From Anaerolineae bacterium (GTDB lineage: Bacteria; Chloroflexota; Anaerolineae; Aggregatilineales; Phototrophicaceae), in contig JALHQT010000004.1 of assembly GCA_022841825.1 (NCBI GenBank), positions 62,001-126,000 on the forward strand: a DNA stretch of 64,000 bases. Reading direction: 5' to 3'. The position numbers and the translations under genes are program-made. Positions 6,864-17,307 of the stretch are shown here, piece by piece (positions within the stretch are counted from its first letter, which is position 1; each line of letters starts with the position of its first letter). The notes under the pieces are model-generated. The model saw only the letters and a list, made by a program, of their open reading frames with translations, made no database searches and had not been told where the DNA came from.

Positions 6864-6930
6864 GGGCGGGGACTCAACCCCGCCCTTACACCGCGTTGAT
6901 CGCAGGGGCGCAATCCATTGCGCCCCTGCG
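6864..6930. repeat. Two palindromic repeat hairpins between binding-protein and permease genes
   Basis: The first hairpin is GGGCGGGG-ACTCAA-CCCCGCCC (6864-6885). The second (6901-6930) is a perfect 14-base inverted repeat of CGCAGGGGCGCAAT with a 2-base loop. The second has a near-identical relative at 11383-11410. They lie between binding-protein stop and permease start on the minus strand and could act as 3' stabilisers of the binding-protein message. Confidence 0.8.
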
Positions 6931-9950: not shown

Positions 9951-11288
9951 ATGAAGAAAGTCTTGGGGCTGACGATTCTCGTGGTGGTCGGGCTGCTGAT
10001 GGGCAGCGCAGCATTTGCGCAGGAAACGATTGACATCAGCGTTCGCTGCGTTGGCGGTGAAATCGACCGTTGGCGCTGCGAAAACTTCGCCGCAGTCGAA
10101 GAACAGGTCGAAGCTGAACTCGGCATTTCACTGAACCTCACCCTCACGCACGATGCCAAGGCATGGGCGGACTACAAGAACGAGTTCCTGCTCGCGGCAC
10201 AGGCAGGTGAGGCACCGGATATTATCCTCTCCGGTCACGAAGATGTCGGCGCTTGGGCACCGGCTGGCTTCATCATCCCCCTGGACGATCTGATTGCGCA
10301 GCACAGCGAATTTGAAGACATCGTCCCCACGCTCTGGGAATCGCAGTCGTGGGATGGTCAGGTCTGGGCGATCCCGCAGGACTCTGAGGCACGTCCGATC
10401 TTCTTCAGCCGCCTTCTGCTCGCCGACCTGGGTTGGAGCGAGGAAGAAATCGCTTCACTGCCGGAGCGCGTGCGCATGGGCGAATTCACCTTCGAGGACA
10501 TGATTGCCACCGCCGAACAAGCGGTCGCCGAAGGCGTGGTTGAGTCTGGCTATGGCTTCTACCATCGCCCCAGCATTGGCTTCGACTGGCTGCCCTACTA
10601 CCTCGGTCATGGCGGCGAAATCATGATCGAAGATGGCACACTGGTCTTCGATACCGAAGCGGCTCTGGGTGCCTACGAACTGATCGCCAGCTTCGCAGCG
10701 CGTGGCGTCACCCGCCCCGACATGATCGGCTACGACTGGACGCAGATGTACACCGAAGTCGCGCCTGCCGACCAGGTGCTCTTCTACCAGGGTGGTACCT
10801 GGCAGTGGGCGGACTGGGCGGTGAACTACATCGCCGACCTCGGCGGCAATGACTACCTGCTGGAAAATATGGGACTGATGCTGTTCCCGGCGATGACGGA
10901 AGAAGAAGGTCCGCTCACGCTGACGCACCCGCTGTCGTACATGATCAGCAGCAGCAGCGAGCATCCCGAAGTGGCGATGGCGCTCCTCGCCGCCGTCACC
11001 ACCGTAGAAGCGAACAACCGTCATGCCATCGAGAGCTTCCACCTCGGCATCCTGAATGCCCAGGTTGAGGCAGAACCCTACAAGTCACACCCGGTTCTGA
11101 GCACCGCGCACTACATGCTCGATTACACGCGCTCGGCACCGAATCACCCCTCGTACAGCGCCTGGGCGAACGCCTACTGGCTGGGCATTACCGCCGCACA
11201 CACCGGCGAAGCCACACCTGAAGAAGCCGTTCAACTGGCGGTCGAAACCCTCCAGAACGAACTCGGCGACGGCATCACCATTCGCTAG
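9951..11288 (+). CDS. Extracellular solute-binding protein, ABC importer next to GDPD
   Basis: A 445-residue secreted binding protein with an Sec signal MKKVLGLTILVVVGLLMGSA ending near AFA-QE. The start is the ATG at 9951, 8 bases after GAGGAG; a TTG one codon earlier is less likely. The family-1 fold is suggested by the segment LLAAQAGEAPDIILSGHED and by its place as first gene of a binding protein-permease-permease-ATPase set. Because a glycerophosphodiester phosphodiesterase follows the ATPase directly, glycerophosphodiesters or inositol-phosphate-like ligands are the best guess. Confidence 0.85.
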   Translation: MKKVLGLTILVVVGLLMGSAAFAQETIDISVRCVGGEIDRWRCENFAAVEEQVEAELGISLNLTLTHDAKAWADYKNEFLLAAQAGEAPDIILSGHEDVGAWAPAGFIIPLDDLIAQHSEFEDIVPTLWESQSWDGQVWAIPQDSEARPIFFSRLLLADLGWSEEEIASLPERVRMGEFTFEDMIATAEQAVAEGVVESGYGFYHRPSIGFDWLPYYLGHGGEIMIEDGTLVFDTEAALGAYELIASFAARGVTRPDMIGYDWTQMYTEVAPADQVLFYQGGTWQWADWAVNYIADLGGNDYLLENMGLMLFPAMTEEEGPLTLTHPLSYMISSSSEHPEVAMALLAAVTTVEANNRHAIESFHLGILNAQVEAEPYKSHPVLSTAHYMLDYTRSAPNHPSYSAWANAYWLGITAAHTGEATPEEAVQLAVETLQNELGDGITIR

Positions 11289-11294
11289 TGCGAC

Positions 11295-11410
11295 GGACGC
11301 CATTTATGGCGTCCCTACAACCACGATCCTGTAGGGACGGCATTCATGCCGTCCGTTGAAACAAGATGGACACCCGCTCGTTGTAGGGGCGCAATGCATT
11401 GCGCCCCTAC
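11295..11410. repeat. Cluster of three dispersed palindromic repeats within the ABC operon
   Basis: Hairpin A (11295-11314) is GGACGCCAT-TT-ATGGCGTCC followed by CTACAA. Hairpin B (11335-11354) is GGACGGCAT-TC-ATGCCGTCC. Element C (11383-11410) is a perfect 28-base palindrome with half-site GTAGGGGCGCAATG. A and B recur in the same order at 23657-23706, and C recurs at 6901-6930. They fill the gap between binding-protein stop and permease start and may dampen or stabilise the transcript there. Confidence 0.85.
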
Positions 11411-11438
11411 GGCAACCGGCACGTTTTTAGGGATGGGC

Positions 11439-12398
11439 ATGGCAGCCGTAACCACAACACAAAGTAAACGCACCAGCAGCGGGCGACCCAATCTGACCGC
11501 ATACCTGTTTCTCATGCCTGCGGTCGTGCTGGTCGTCCTTTTCTTTCTGATCCCGACAATTCTCGTGCTTTACATCAGCATGACGAACCTGACCAGCGCC
11601 AACTTCACCGCCGACATCGCCCAGATGGAATTCATCGGCTTTGCCAACTTTACAACCTTATTCAATGATCAGTTTGCGCAAAAAATCCTCTTTAACACAC
11701 TCTTCTACGTGTTGGTGACGATGGCGATCTTCAATGTCGGTGCCTCGCTCTTCGTCTCCCTCCTGACGACCCACATCAATCGCCGCGCCAGTTTCGTGTT
11801 TCGCGCTTTGTGGCTGCTGCCTCGCATCACGGCAGGCACCGTCTATATCATGATGTGGCGTCGCATGATCGCAGATCCCCCGTTCGGGATTCTCAATCAG
11901 GCGCTCGGCGCGGTGGGCGGTACGCCCATCACAGGCTCTGAATATGTGTGGACGTTCGTCGTCATCGTCAACGGCATGATCGGTATGTCGTTCGGCATGG
12001 TGATCTTCACAGCGGCAATCGAGTCGATCTCGAAGGACATCATGAACGCGGCGCTCGTCGATGGTTCTACCATGCTCCAGCGCATCCGCTACATCATCCT
12101 CCCCTTGCTGCGCTGGCCCCTGCTGTTCGTCATTTCCTATCAGACGCTCTCGCTGCTCACTTCCTACGAGCAAATCCTGCTGCTCACCAACGGCGGACCG
12201 GGTTTGTACCAGACGGAGGTCTGGGCGCTGACGGCATATCATCGCGCGCTCTCCAATTACTTTGGCAATGCGCAGTGGGGCTACGGTTCGGCGTTCGCCG
12301 TTGTGCTGGTCGTGATCGGTGTGCTGCTGGCGGCGCTGTATATGCGGGTCTTCCGCTTCCGCGATCTGGTCGCGGAGCCGAAGATCGAGACCTTATAG
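11439..12398 (+). CDS. ABC transporter permease, MalF type
   Basis: A 319-residue permease with a first helix at FLMPAVVLVVLFFLIPTILVLYI and EAA loop MNAALVDGSTMLQRIRYIIL. The start is uncertain between ATG 11433 and 11439; 11439 is chosen because AGGGA lies 5 bases upstream. The frame extends further upstream, but that part would translate the palindromic repeat. It pairs with the PDZ-containing permease downstream, 16 bases away. Confidence 0.88.
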   Translation: MAAVTTTQSKRTSSGRPNLTAYLFLMPAVVLVVLFFLIPTILVLYISMTNLTSANFTADIAQMEFIGFANFTTLFNDQFAQKILFNTLFYVLVTMAIFNVGASLFVSLLTTHINRRASFVFRALWLLPRITAGTVYIMMWRRMIADPPFGILNQALGAVGGTPITGSEYVWTFVVIVNGMIGMSFGMVIFTAAIESISKDIMNAALVDGSTMLQRIRYIILPLLRWPLLFVISYQTLSLLTSYEQILLLTNGGPGLYQTEVWALTAYHRALSNYFGNAQWGYGSAFAVVLVVIGVLLAALYMRVFRFRDLVAEPKIETL

Positions 12399-12414: not shown

Positions 12415-14004
12415 ATGAACGTTGACGAAACCTTATCTGCTCCCCTCGCTGATCTTTCCCCGACGACAGTGGTGCCGCCGCCCTGGCTGAAGATGCTGAT
12501 CCAGATCGCCCGCAACTGCCTGGTCGTCACCGTCATTCTGGCGCTGCTGGCACTGGTATTCGGCTCCATCCTGCGCCCGGCGCTGGAAGCGGTCAATGTC
12601 AATGAGGAACTGACCGCTTTGCTCTCCTGGCTGCTCATTGCCGCCATCCCCCCTGCTCTGTACCTGACCGTCGGCTTTACGGCACGCACGCTGCGGAATG
12701 CCCACCCCGCGCGTGCCCTGGTCGTGGCGCTGCTGGCGGCAACGCTGGTCTACGGCGCGACTTTGCTGTGGAATGCTGCCTTCCCGGCAGCGCAGGCAGC
12801 GCAGGGGCAGCCTTCACTGGAGATGACCTTCGCACAGGCGGACAGCGGAGTCGTCATCGAAAGCATTGTCGCGGGCAGCGCGGCGGAGCAGGCGGGGCTG
12901 CGCGTCGGCGATGTCATCACCGCCATCCGCCGCGAATCCATCGATCTGGCGGCGCTGCAATCGCGCATTGAGGAAGAGCCGCTGGGCACGCCTTTCCGGC
13001 TGCGCGTGCAGCGTGATGGCGAAGAGTTTCAGGTCACGGTGAATTCCATCGCTTCGGCAACCGGCGCCGGAAATGCCGCGCTCTCCCGCGCGGCTGCTGG
13101 TCGGGCGGTCGCGCTCGTGGTGACCGCCGTGGGACTGCTCGTCCCGTTCAATTGGCTTCCTTATCTCCTCCTCGGCGTGACGCTGCTGCCGCTGCTGCTT
13201 GGCTATACCTGGCTCATCGTGGCGACGTTTTCCCAGGAGACGCACGGGCTGCTCCCCGTCGACAGCACAGGCAGCCTGGGCGGCTTGACGCTTTCCAACT
13301 GGGACTTTCTGACAGAAGTCAGCCGTCGGGGGAGCGTCTGGACGTACACCCTCAACTCCTTCGCCATCGCCGTCATCATGACCGCCGCGCTGCTCGTCCT
13401 GTGCTCGATGGCTGCGTATGCCCTCTCGCGCATGGAATTTCGGGGGCGCAGGCTGTTCCTCTCGTTCACGCTCATCCTGCACGGCTTCCCTGCCGTCACG
13501 CTGCTCATCCCAATCTACCTGGTGCTGCTCAATCTGGGCGCGCTGCCGATCATCGGCGAGTACATTGGCTTTAACACGCTTGGCGGCATCGCGTTGGTCG
13601 AAATCGCCTTCGGGATGCCGTTCGGCGTCTGGCTGATGAAGGGCTTCTTCGACAACATCTCGTGGGATATGGAGCGTTCGGCGTTGATCGATGGCGCGAA
13701 CCGCTGGCGCACGTTCTGGGAAATCATCCTGCCCCAGATTCGCCCCGGTCTGTTCGCGCTGGGGATCTTCTCATTCGTCGGCGGCTGGAACACCTACCTG
13801 ATCCCGGCGACCTTCAGCACCGGCACGCGCATCGCCAACCTGCCTGTTTACATCCAGCAGCTTCTGGGTGAGACCAATCCGATCAACTGGAATGAGATCG
13901 CCGCCATCGGCTTGTTCCAGATGATCCCGATCCTGATCCTGTTCGTCTTCGCGCAGGAATATCTGCTCAACATCTACTCCGGCGGGTCGAAGGGCAGTTC
14001 ATGA
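12415..14004 (+). CDS. ABC transporter permease (MalG type) with an inserted PDZ domain
   Basis: A 529-residue protein, about 250 residues longer than a normal MalG-type permease. The C-terminal half (from about residue 300) is a standard permease with EAA loop ERSALIDGANRWRTFWEIIL. The N-terminal part has three hydrophobic segments (about 33-55, 68-88 and 100-120), a PDZ-like domain (about 133-211), then two more hydrophobic segments (about 228-268) leading into the permease. The PDZ-like features are GVVIESIVAGSAAEQAGLRV, GDVITAIRRESI and GTPFRLRVQRDGEEFQV. Three preceding helices would put the PDZ outside the membrane if the N-terminus is cytoplasmic. The ATG at 12415 has GGAG upstream. 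Whether the PDZ contacts the binding protein or a partner is unknown. Confidence 0.88.
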   Translation: MNVDETLSAPLADLSPTTVVPPPWLKMLIQIARNCLVVTVILALLALVFGSILRPALEAVNVNEELTALLSWLLIAAIPPALYLTVGFTARTLRNAHPARALVVALLAATLVYGATLLWNAAFPAAQAAQGQPSLEMTFAQADSGVVIESIVAGSAAEQAGLRVGDVITAIRRESIDLAALQSRIEEEPLGTPFRLRVQRDGEEFQVTVNSIASATGAGNAALSRAAAGRAVALVVTAVGLLVPFNWLPYLLLGVTLLPLLLGYTWLIVATFSQETHGLLPVDSTGSLGGLTLSNWDFLTEVSRRGSVWTYTLNSFAIAVIMTAALLVLCSMAAYALSRMEFRGRRLFLSFTLILHGFPAVTLLIPIYLVLLNLGALPIIGEYIGFNTLGGIALVEIAFGMPFGVWLMKGFFDNISWDMERSALIDGANRWRTFWEIILPQIRPGLFALGIFSFVGGWNTYLIPATFSTGTRIANLPVYIQQLLGETNPINWNEIAAIGLFQMIPILILFVFAQEYLLNIYSGGSKGSS

Positions 14005-14023: not shown

Positions 14024-15103
14024 ATGAAAGTAGATATCGAGCAGCTTAACAAATCCTTCGGCACAGTCGTCGCCGTCCACGACCTCAACCTCGACATCCG
14101 CGCTGGGGAATTCGTCGCCTTCCTGGGTCCGTCCGGTTGCGGCAAGACTACAACTCTGCTGATGATCGCGGGTATCTACAAACCTACAGGAGGCGTCATC
14201 CGCTTTGGCGAGCGCGTCGTTAACACGGTGCAGCCGCGCGACCGCAATATCGGGATGGTCTTCCAGAGCTACGCGCTCTACCCACACATGTCCGTGTTCG
14301 AGAATATCGCCTATCCGCTCAAGCTGAAGGGCGTGAGTAAAGACGAGCAGCGGGTGCGCGTCCAGCGCTCGGCGGACGTGATGGGCATCGGCGATCTGCT
14401 TCATCGGCGACCGGGGCAGCTTTCTGGCGGGCAGCAGCAGCGCGTGGCGCTGGGGCGTGCCCTGGTCAAAGAGCCGGATGTATTGCTGTTCGACGAGCCG
14501 CTCTCCAACCTGGATGCGCGGCTGCGTCTGACGATGCGCGGCGAAATCAAGGCACTGCAAAAACGGCTCGGTATCACGTCCATTTACGTCACGCATGATC
14601 AGGTCGAGGCGTTGACGATGGCGGATCGAATCGCCGTGATGAACGAAGGGCTGCTTGAGGCATACGACACGCCCGACGATCTCTACGACCATCCCAAGAC
14701 CCTCTTTATCGCGAGCTTCGTTGGCAACCCGCCGATGAATATCCTGCCGATCCAGGCGGCTTTGGAAGGCGATGCGGTGATCCTGCAGAATGACGCGCTG
14801 CGCCTGCCTGTGCGCAGCGAACGCGCGCTCAAAGCCGCGCAGCAGCACGGAGATCTGCTGATGGGTGTGCGTCCGGAGGATGTCACCCTGTCCGCAGACG
14901 GGGCGCTGTGTGGTGAGGTGTTTGTGGTGGAACCGTTGGGGCGCGAAGACATGATCGACGTGCGTATAGGTCAGCACCGCCTCGCCGCGCTCGTGACGAC
15001 CGAAAAGCGCATCCGAGCGGGTAATAGAGTACGACTTGACATCAATGCTGATAAACTTCAATTCTTCGACCCTGCCAGCAAACGTTCAATCCTGTGGACA
15101 TAA
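14024..15103 (+). CDS. Sugar-type ABC transporter ATPase (MsmX/UgpC family)
   Basis: A 359-residue ATPase with all motifs intact: Walker A GPSGCGKTT, Q-loop FQSYALYPHM, signature LSGGQQQRVAL, Walker B LLFDEPLSNLD and H-loop YVTHDQ. A TOBE-type domain follows (GVRPEDVTLS). It closes the importer at 9951-14004 and is the only complete carbohydrate-type ATPase near the ATPase-less importer at 34776-38127, so it could serve both. It ends 2 bases before the phosphodiesterase start. Confidence 0.9.
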   Translation: MKVDIEQLNKSFGTVVAVHDLNLDIRAGEFVAFLGPSGCGKTTTLLMIAGIYKPTGGVIRFGERVVNTVQPRDRNIGMVFQSYALYPHMSVFENIAYPLKLKGVSKDEQRVRVQRSADVMGIGDLLHRRPGQLSGGQQQRVALGRALVKEPDVLLFDEPLSNLDARLRLTMRGEIKALQKRLGITSIYVTHDQVEALTMADRIAVMNEGLLEAYDTPDDLYDHPKTLFIASFVGNPPMNILPIQAALEGDAVILQNDALRLPVRSERALKAAQQHGDLLMGVRPEDVTLSADGALCGEVFVVEPLGREDMIDVRIGQHRLAALVTTEKRIRAGNRVRLDINADKLQFFDPASKRSILWT

Positions 15104-15105
15104 CC

Positions 15106-16512
15106 ATGCACACCGATGCCGAAATGCTCGCGCTGCTGGACAGCGCTTCTGACGAAGATGCAGCTCTGGCGCGCGCTCATGCGCCCGTCATCCTCTTCGA
15201 CGCCGCCGAGCCGTTCCTGCCGCTCGCAGCGGGTTACACCATCTTTCGCAGCAATGCGCCATCGCTTTCGTTCCCGCGCACGATTGAACTGCCGGAAGGC
15301 GCGGCGCTCGCCATCGAGTACGCCATCTGGTGGGATTGGGACATCGAACATCTCTACGAGCTGGAGCATGTCTGGGTCTATCTGGATGAGGCGGGCAAGC
15401 TGATCGCTGCTGACGCGAGCTGGCACGGTGGCTGGAACGCGATGGCGGTCGAAAACGGGGCGCTGACACTCTATTCGGAACCCGGCAAACATGCCTTTGC
15501 GTCGTCCGTCGCGCCGCTGCTCGAACGCCGCGCGACCACGCTGTCAGGCTGCACATCGCCGCGCAAGACGCGCGGGCTGCTGGTGACGCCGCACTTCCGG
15601 GGGGTCATCCCGCAGGGCAAGCCAGTCGAGCAGCAGCTTGTCCGTACGTACCTGGAACGGCAGCTTTTCCAGCCGAGCTACGACTTCTCGAAAGCCTTCG
15701 CTCTCGCCGATGCGCGGCTGGTCCCCTGGTCGCAACTACAGGCATGGATTCCGCAGCGTGTGCGCTGGTGGCTGGACAGGCTTGATGAGACGACTGCCTA
15801 TGACGAGCGACGGGTCCTGAGCATCGCCCATCGCGGCGCGTCGGCATATGCCGAAGAGAACTCATCAGAGGCGTTCGCGGTTGCCTCGAAGCTGGGCGCG
15901 GATTGGGTCGAGGTCGATCTGCGCGTGACGACAGACTCGATCCCAGTCATTTCGCATGACGACAGTCTCAAGCGTGTGTATGGCGTGGACGGGCTGATTT
16001 CCGAGATGACATACTCGGAAGTCACAGCAAAAGCGCATGTGCTGACGTTTGCCGAACTGCTTGACCAGTGCAGCGCGCTCGACCTGGGCATCTACCTGGA
16101 CATCAAGGCGATTGACCGGGAAGCCGCGCAAATCGTTTTTGAGCAGGTGGCAGACGCCCATGCCTGGCATCGCGTCATCTTCGCCTCGTTCCGACCGGAC
16201 ATCGTGGCGGAACTCAAAGCGCACTCTCCGGCGATCTGGACATCGATCCTGTTCGCATCGCCTCACGTCGACGCGGTGGCTTTGGGGCGTGCTGTCCGTG
16301 CTGACTTCGTCCATCCATGCTGGGAATATGCCTCGGAAACGCCTCACCTGCTCATGACGGACGAGTGGCTGAACGCTGTGCGCAGCGCGGGATTGGGCAT
16401 CATCACCTGGGCGGAAGAACGCGCGCATGTCATCTCCGGGCTGAAGCAGCGCGGCGTCATCGGCATCTGCTCGGATCGCCCGGAGACCGTTGCGCAATCA
16501 GGCGCATCCTGA
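15106..16512 (+). CDS. Glycerophosphodiester phosphodiesterase with unknown N-terminal domain
   Basis: A 468-residue protein. The C-terminal domain (about 236-465) is GDPD: the catalytic HRGASAYAEEN begins at His 242, followed by metal ligands in WVEVDLRVT and SHDDSLKRVYG and a C-terminal ITWAEERAHV segment. It hydrolyses glycerophosphodiesters to glycerol-3-phosphate and an alcohol. Residues 1-230 are not recognised; they contain the acidic, aromatic stretch EYAIWWDWDIEHLYELEHVW and an SWHGGW motif. No signal peptide is seen, so it is probably cytoplasmic and acts on imported substrate. The ATG at 15106 follows the ATPase stop by 2 bases; an in-frame GTG at 15094 is an alternative. Confidence 0.88.
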   Translation: MHTDAEMLALLDSASDEDAALARAHAPVILFDAAEPFLPLAAGYTIFRSNAPSLSFPRTIELPEGAALAIEYAIWWDWDIEHLYELEHVWVYLDEAGKLIAADASWHGGWNAMAVENGALTLYSEPGKHAFASSVAPLLERRATTLSGCTSPRKTRGLLVTPHFRGVIPQGKPVEQQLVRTYLERQLFQPSYDFSKAFALADARLVPWSQLQAWIPQRVRWWLDRLDETTAYDERRVLSIAHRGASAYAEENSSEAFAVASKLGADWVEVDLRVTTDSIPVISHDDSLKRVYGVDGLISEMTYSEVTAKAHVLTFAELLDQCSALDLGIYLDIKAIDREAAQIVFEQVADAHAWHRVIFASFRPDIVAELKAHSPAIWTSILFASPHVDAVALGRAVRADFVHPCWEYASETPHLLMTDEWLNAVRSAGLGIITWAEERAHVISGLKQRGVIGICSDRPETVAQSGAS

Positions 16513-16527
16513 ACGAAGGTGCATTTC

Positions 16528-17307
16528 GTGCCGTCTTTGACGCCTTTTCCTGAGGTCAACGAACTCCTGACGCGCCTGTTGAATGGCGTGAGCGCGATCC
16601 TGGGTAAGGATTTCGTCGGCATGTATCTGTTTGGCTCGCTGACGCTGGGTGCCTTCAACGATGGCAGCGACATCGATTACGTGGTCGTGACGGAAAGCGC
16701 CCTTTCTAATGGGTTGGTCGCGCGCCTGGCGGCATTGCACGAGCAAATCGCCAGCCTGCCTAACCGCTTTGCGACCGAGATCGAAGCATCGTATATCCCA
16801 CGCAAAGCCTTTCGGCGCTACGACGCTGCGGATCGTGAGCATCCCCACATTGATCGCGGCGAAGGGGAGCGGCTCGTCCAGCGTTGGACGCACGAAGAGG
16901 ACTGGATCGTCCAGCGGTATGTTCTCCACCAGCACGGCATCACCATCGCGGGACCCGATGTGCGCGGGCTGCTCGATCCGGTTTCGCCGGATGAACTCAA
17001 GGGTGCGGTCAGCGCTATTCTGCGCGGCTGGTGGCTGCCGATGGTGGACGACGACTACAAGCTGCAAAAGAGCGGCTATCAGGCATACGCCGTTCTGTCG
17101 ATGTGCCGCATCGCTTACACGCTTGAACGCGGTGATGTCCTCTCCAAACTGGCTGCGGCAGCCTGGATGCTTGACCGTGAACCGGGATTCACCGATCTGA
17201 TTCATCGCGCGCTGAAATGGCAGCTCTCAAACGACGACATTGCAACCACACAGCAGCTCATCGCGCGCGTAGGAAGACACCTGGACGGCAAGAAACTGGC
17301 GCGGTAA
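16528..17307 (+). CDS. AadA-like nucleotidyltransferase-domain protein
   Basis: About 259 residues. The nucleotidyltransferase motif LFGSLTLGAFNDGSDIDYVV (GS...DxD) is followed by a helical C-terminal region resembling that of aminoglycoside adenylyltransferases (RGWWLPMVDDDYKLQKSGYQ, AVLSMCRIAYTLERG). The GTG at 16528 has GAAGG 8 bases upstream; an earlier GTG at 16519 is also possible. Resistance to streptomycin or spectinomycin is possible, but many such chromosomal proteins have no known substrate. It follows the phosphodiesterase on the same strand after 15 bases. Confidence 0.75.
   Translation: MPSLTPFPEVNELLTRLLNGVSAILGKDFVGMYLFGSLTLGAFNDGSDIDYVVVTESALSNGLVARLAALHEQIASLPNRFATEIEASYIPRKAFRRYDAADREHPHIDRGEGERLVQRWTHEEDWIVQRYVLHQHGITIAGPDVRGLLDPVSPDELKGAVSAILRGWWLPMVDDDYKLQKSGYQAYAVLSMCRIAYTLERGDVLSKLAAAAWMLDREPGFTDLIHRALKWQLSNDDIATTQQLIARVGRHLDGKKLAR

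Follow-up and report, generated by a model that had tools for sequence, protein, structure and literature searches.

The permease studied here can be compared with MalG of the CUT1 importer MalFGK2 (PDB 3puv, 2r6g), with which it shares the core fold, the EAA loop and the gene order with a binding protein, MalF and MalK, but the solved MalG chains contain neither a PDZ domain nor the four extra helices. As the NCBIfam MalG model scores below its cut-off here (116.7 against 261, the MalE model being likewise below cut-off), maltose is not established as the substrate. The maltose transporter of E. coli is served by an outward domain, MalF P2, and the present case resembles it in that one permease subunit carries an additional outward domain, the side of the PDZ domain being a prediction; P2 sits between the core helices of MalF, its fold differs from that of a PDZ domain, and neither MalF nor MalG of the operon described below gave a MalF_P2 match at E 0.01.

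PDZ domains are typical of HtrA, RseP and CtpA proteases and usually take a C-terminus through a hydrophobic-Gly-hydrophobic loop. For DegP PDZ1 this carboxylate loop is given as E-L-G-I in PMC4434178. The DegP and DegQ domains (HtrA family) and the permease domain share the PDZ fold when the AlphaFold model is compared by VIA-align (DegP 6jjk_F against model residues 134..214: Z 11.8, rmsd 1.9 A, 81 residues), but the permease chain has no protease domain and its loop follows S-L-Q/E-M/F in place of E-L-G-I. Orthologous operons without the PDZ domain (L014-L039, with record titles including Ardenticatenia, Anaerolineae, Bipolaricaulota, Atribacteria, Aerophobetes and others) share the gene set as far as their contigs allow and have 48-61% identity over the permease core, but their permease is about 300 aa long and carries no added module.

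The permease gene and its operon

The window, a 64,000-nucleotide stretch of the Anaerolineae contig JALHQT010000004.1, contains an operon of four genes, coding for a binding protein, MalF, MalG and MalK, in which the MalG-type permease is enlarged. The features, all on the + strand, are as follows:

9951..11288, +, solute-binding protein (SBP_bac_1) having a signal peptide without lipobox
11433..12398, +, MalF-type permease, no MalF_P2 match
12415..14004, +, PDZ-bearing MalG-type permease, ORF of 529 aa
12481..12804, +, extra N-terminal helices 1-3, residues 23-130 (AlphaFold, hydropathy)
12814..13047, +, PDZ domain, residues 134-211, predicted outside (Pfam, AlphaFold, VIA-align, profile, dN/dS)
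12814..12825, +, position of the carboxylate-binding loop, residues 134-137, SLEM (consensus S-L-Q/E-M/F)
13057..13140, +, extra helix 4 linking PDZ to core, residues 215-242 (AlphaFold)
13150..13989, +, complete MalG core, residues 246-525 (Pfam, ortholog alignment, VIA-align)
13666..13734, +, EAA-type cytoplasmic loop, residues 418-440 (sequence, mostly invariant block in the alignment)
14024..15103, +, MalK/UgpC-type ATPase (Pfam, NCBIfam)
15094..16512, +, protein with a glycerophosphodiester phosphodiesterase (GDPD) domain, adjoining some but not all PDZ operons

The first-pass annotation of this DNA had described a MalG-type permease of 529 residues with an intact EAA loop and a PDZ-like domain at about residues 133-211, and both parts of this description are borne out. 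The ATG at 12415 is the sensible start, an earlier in-frame GTG falling within malF, and the gene is separated by 16 bases from malF and by 19 bases from malK. Pfam places BPD_transp_1 at residues 332-517 (E 1.3e-14; 54.8 bits against a cut-off of 26.4), and the EAA-type loop reads ERSALIDGA, ten residues and LP (residues 420-440). Three Pfam families recognise the PDZ region above their curated cut-offs, PDZ_6 at 147-200 (E 2.7e-9), PDZ_2 at 137-209 (E 1.3e-8) and PDZ at 143-177 (E 3.2e-6), and a profile built from six orthologs matches MalG/SugB chains in its C-terminal half and DegQ/DegP chains at positions of about 133-219, while one built from just the PDZ part reaches E 8e-20 against DegQ.

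Structure prediction with AlphaFold gave a model of moderate overall confidence (mean pLDDT 72.5, pTM 0.48) in which three helices (23-59, 65-93, 98-122) are followed by a domain of five strands between residues 137 and 210, two further helices (215-242, 245-273) and then the core. Averaged over blocks of ten residues, pLDDT is 79-91 from residue 141 to 210, and the region from 246 to 524 resembles MalG (VIA-align, 3puv_G: Z 15.8, rmsd 4.8 A, 250 residues). Pfam, PDB profiles and the AlphaFold model thus agree in predicting a PDZ fold for residues 134-211; the fold prediction is good while the position of the domain relative to the core is unreliable at this pTM. The VIA-align rows leave the three extra helices uncovered, statements about fold thus concerning only the PDZ domain and the core, and residues 23-130 matched no Pfam family.

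The PDZ domain had been described as inserted into the permease, and of this the presence of both domains in one chain stands while the insertion does not. Permeases of the PDZ-less orthologs are mostly about 300 residues long (stop-to-stop frames 257-394) and those aligned start about 20 residues before core helix 1, whereas the PDZ version has about 240 added residues before that helix, which begins near residue 246. Since the module lies in front of a complete core, the architecture is an N-terminal fusion of three helices, the PDZ domain and one helix to an intact permease core. Within the 529 aa no trypsin-like (HtrA-type) protease domain was matched by Pfam at E 0.01.

Among the partner proteins, the model of the binding protein matches the maltose type (MalE3 6dtr: Z 39.3, rmsd 2.5 A, 383 residues), while the best NCBIfam matches are UgpA for MalF (66.2 bits, below the cut-off of 335) and UgpC for the ATPase (417.4, below the cut-off of 432). 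A GDPD gene follows the operon in the window and at L009, L085, L088, L193 and L195, lies on the opposite strand at L190, and did not turn up in the part read of several other PDZ operons; one may guess at a glycerophosphodiester or a related compound as the substrate. By reading, no hydrophobic signal-like start was seen in the GDPD protein, in which about 240 N-terminal residues have no Pfam match and the domain occupies residues 246-465; its homologue at L009 has the same length, 472 aa. Directly after the operon, at 16519-17307, follows an AadA-like nucleotidyltransferase (AadA_C 44.2 bits).

For malF the ATG at 11433 appears, by reading, a likelier start than the ATG at 11346, which lies 5' of a dispersed palindrome. 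This perfect 28-bp palindrome, GTAGGGGCGCAATGCATTGCGCCCCTAC, is located at 11383-11410 between the binding-protein gene and malF and recurs with 3 mismatches at 6902-6929, and its degenerate form is found at 29 places in the genome against 0 for a reversed control, which makes it a dispersed palindromic repeat family. In some loci the binding-protein gene is broken across two frames (L085:4295-5664 and L187, from G445 and G501, and the two non-PDZ contigs L021 and L022), reflecting either assembly errors or decay.

Occurrence of the module

Among 31 related loci in the genome collection the full module is present in five (L009-L013) and absent from 26 (L014-L039). When the order of the window was searched, the module was found in 49 of 154 genomes and 12 of 61 genera with no in-frame stop in any, and because of this the alternative that the N-terminal part is a separate protein joined by a sequencing error is excluded. 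The binding protein of the operon is likewise found in 49 of the 154 genomes, and 47 hold both. The one-sided genomes are all contig-end cases: of the two with the module only, G413 has a contig beginning within the permease and G471 one that stops just past malF, and in the two with the binding protein only (G462, G501) the contig ends inside malF. The PDZ domain is therefore present in every genome of the order in which the orthologous permease is readable, and no loss was seen within the order.

In wider samples, with 7 first-look candidates scored per genome, 13 of 396 genomes of the class matched, all belonging to the window's order, and 13 of 400 genomes of the phylum, of which only the window's own holds the whole module; the other 12 matches start at model position 101 or later, at loci holding no permease ORF. 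Within the samples searched the whole module is restricted to one order of Chloroflexota. The window's own genome contains 13 PDZ_6 stretches, one of them in a permease, that at 12415-14004, and a search with our own profile found no permease ORF in any of 43 other PDZ loci (L041-L052, L063-L081 and L173-L185 minus L177), a check covering those loci and not all bacteria. A standalone source of the three-helix part was considered and rejected, the phylum sample having given PDZ-only stretches outside the own genome. The secreted tandem-PDZ proteins L174 and L175 of the own genome resemble the PDZ part only. These two (L174:1363-2148 and G000:C4:350344-351084, the latter L175:1342-2175) begin with a signal-like segment and show no protease domain in the stretch viewed, and with similar proteins in relatives they form a possible donor pool of PDZ domains.

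A tree of the permease cores was built from 61 rows, 31 with PDZ (the truncated L013 omitted), 26 without and 4 PDZ-less paralogs as outgroup. A single branch, with support of 100/99, sets off all 26 PDZ-less orthologs. With the outgroup included the PDZ label needs two changes, a single change occurring in 0% of 200 bootstrap trees, and the outgroup attaches among the PDZ rows, which would read as a gain followed by a later loss; its branches are very long (4.7-5.5) and the root is for this reason not trusted. One PDZ row, L010 (JAPUDW010000153.1), is titled Bacteroidetes, a title that looks wrong as the genome, G492, is placed in the window's family.

A PDZ domain in an importer permease was not found described by title or abstract in the open-access literature. 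The architecture is real and conserved, and undescribed in the literature searches made.

Constraint, orientation and ligand mode of the PDZ domain

Conservation was followed in an alignment of 32 of the 49 genomes' sequences (A3; three fetched later are left out). By median dN/dS the core (0.18) and the PDZ domain (0.24) are more constrained than helices 1-3 (0.45), helix 4 (0.51) and the N-tail (0.79); these values come from 336 ortholog pairs (331 for PDZ) that are non-independent and have synonymous sites near saturation. Residues kept in the PDZ domain are S134 (30 of 32), L135 (31), R172 (30), R173 (32), R200 (32), E203 (31), E204 (30) and Q206 (30), and by these sequence measures the domain is not decaying.

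The first-pass annotation had proposed that the domain, following three helices, would face outward, and this is supported as a prediction by loop charges in the same 32 orthologs and by the helix count. The loop at 54-67 has a mean K+R/D+E of 0.50/2.12, which fits the outside, while the loop at 87-100 (3.16/0.84) and the core loop at 336-347 (3.09/0.16) fit the inside; the N-tail (3.69/3.81) and the loop at 239-248 (0.12/0.00) are uninformative for sidedness. The four added helices, being even in number, would retain the orientation of the core and leave the PDZ domain probably on the outer face.

When the loop that normally binds the carboxylate was compared, position 136 was Q in 23 and E in 8 of the 32 orthologs, glycine being absent in 31 and present only in L010 (SLGF). 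By comparison, 35 of 35 other PDZ domains from the own genome, relatives and the phylum keep a hydrophobic-Gly-hydrophobic stretch ahead of the domain (YLGV, YLGI, RLGV, FLGV etc.), although these were collected with a pattern that detects regular PDZs only and the loop test is loose; on the 32 permease domains that test gave 6 matches, of which only SLGF of L010 lies at the loop and 5 lie elsewhere. The profile aligns the E-M of the loop with DegP PDZ2. The absence of the canonical loop puts peptide binding of the classic kind in doubt and leaves the PDZ fold unaffected, so that, judged from sequence, the permease domain seems to have departed from the canonical mode while still constrained. 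Loss of the glycine need not abolish peptide binding. A classic peptide-binding role is less likely than the first-pass annotation had assumed.

It had also been suggested that the PDZ domain holds the binding protein by its C-terminal peptide, and this idea is weakened. The tail, of the type ELGDxVIIR, is equally conserved in operons with and without PDZ. Its last residue in the 37 PDZ-partner rows, of which 33 are distinct, is R in 33, K in 2 and Q in 2, and among the 16 non-PDZ rows it is R in 12, K in 3 and E in one, and in the predicted structure of the binding protein (mean pLDDT 93.9) residues 442-444 form a strand of the fold, the last block having a pLDDT of 97. The binding-protein C-terminus, at first an attractive ligand for its conservation among PDZ operons, was rejected because the same tail occurs without PDZ and is modelled as part of the fold; the missing loop glycine also weakens the idea. 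The C-terminus of MalF (EPKIExL) was rejected as well, being equally conserved without PDZ and expected to be cytoplasmic.

Possible roles of the domain

We tentatively prefer, while granting it somewhat less than an even chance, that the PDZ domain is an extracytoplasmic docking or assembly surface of the importer with a role comparable to that of MalF P2. The N-terminal module, fused to the MalG subunit of an ABC importer encoded by four genes, would in this case place the PDZ domain outside the membrane, where it may position the non-lipidated binding protein over the translocator through the body of that protein and not its C-terminal tail, or alternatively position a second outward protein there, in analogy to MalF P2 in the E. 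coli maltose transporter. P2 and MalE are treated together in two paper titles in the reference list of PMC3328499. The non-canonical loop in 31 of 32 permease domains against the canonical one in 35 of 35 elsewhere points to assembly over capture of a C-terminal peptide, and in PMC4877387 PDZ2 of plant Deg2 is described as unable to bind substrate and serving assembly. When comparing binding proteins of PDZ and non-PDZ operons (20 against 15 rows), 11 of the 24 columns separating them cluster at residues 47-59, a difference within which the non-PDZ group has a five-residue insertion; this stretch is a candidate contact site, confounded with ancestry and possibly explained by ancestry alone.

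The genomic setting favours an outward docking role without proving it. In the own genome none of 30 binding proteins read (out of 36 family matches) has a lipobox pattern, and the loose pattern, absent from all 37 PDZ-partner rows, is found in 12 of 16 non-PDZ rows; of these 12, six are credible by eye (L014, L015, L016, L017, L020, L036) and six doubtful with the Cys early in the hydrophobic stretch (L023, L030, L031, L033, L034, L035). All five Chloroflexota-titled PDZ-less operons with a start read match the lipobox (L014, L015, L016, L020, L036), while four non-PDZ operons from other phyla (L025, L026, L027, L037) have neither lipobox, by the loose pattern, nor PDZ, which means that a soluble binding protein needs no PDZ domain. 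The idea that the PDZ domain brought about the loss of the lipobox was rejected, the pattern being absent genome-wide and not specifically from the PDZ operon.

A gap of at least 97 aa between hydrophobic segments is found in 8 of 29 own-genome permease ORFs, the PDZ permease included (7 of 28 others), the 29 having been drawn from 125 domain matches with some preference for long frames. An outward face is established for some of these gaps at most, and L232 is by appearance a phosphate-type permease. Extra parts are seen in several permeases of the genome. In L196:661-2745, which is MalG-type and about 695 aa long, 380 residues separate the hydrophobic segments immediately ahead of the transport domain, an insert with no Pfam match at E 0.1, and in L197:922-2865 (MalG-type, 648 aa) helices and a coiled-coil-like insert split the transport core. 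L236:1823-3496 (558 aa) and L237:1300-2694 (465 aa) have, by reading, long and mostly hydrophobic extra N-terminal parts, the gap between hydrophobic segments in L236 being 164 residues. Similarity to MalF_P2 below cut-off was seen in L008 (E 1.8e-5) and L002 (0.027). A more far-reaching form of the docking idea, which we consider rather doubtful, is that of a clade-specific importer in which the soluble binding protein is kept outside by the permease instead of a lipid anchor, the PDZ domain having been converted from a C-terminal peptide binder to a docking surface and the PDZ permease being one of several in the clade with extra domains for the same purpose.

Other explanations have to be set against docking. 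The domain could be a canonical peptide binder that holds the C-terminus of an exported lipoprotein, a hydrolase or a misfolded chain in place of that of the binding protein, as HtrA-type bacterial PDZs behave in this way, its nearest solved folds are the DegP/DegQ domains and S134 and L135 of the loop are almost always kept; the loop glycine, lost here and kept in the other PDZs, and the two C-termini rejected above, that of the binding protein as a predicted strand with a tail conserved without PDZ and that of MalF as conserved with or without PDZ and presumably cytoplasmic, make this unlikely. A comparably low probability is given to the domain assembling the importer itself, PDZ-PDZ or PDZ-MalF contacts clustering importers or stabilising the complex: PDZ domains can dimerise, there is a PDZ domain that serves assembly and binds no peptide (PMC4877387) and the profile pairs the loop with DegP PDZ2, yet nothing distinguishes this from docking to another protein.

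A role in quality control, with the domain recruiting a membrane protease or chaperone or being the remnant of one and importer turnover tied to stress, would agree with HhoA/HtrA and DegP being the best NCBIfam matches for the permease stretch after the permease models, but an HExxH motif (RseP-type) before residue 245, thus in the added region, is found in none of the 32 orthologs, and we regard it as very improbable. Equally remote is a neutral ornament retained by descent, with which the position of the PDZ-less rows on one side of a single branch is compatible, one state change sufficing among the orthologs, while the lower dN/dS of the PDZ domain than of its flanking helices, the invariant R173 and R200 and the lack of any loss seen within the order argue against it.

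The PDZ domain of the permease appears to have abandoned the ligand mode usual for such domains, and the orthologous operons with and without it offer a natural experiment. If it docks the binding protein or a partner, this would be a novel means by which an ABC importer keeps its soluble subunit near, and would be of relevance to nutrient uptake in Chloroflexota without lipidated binding proteins.
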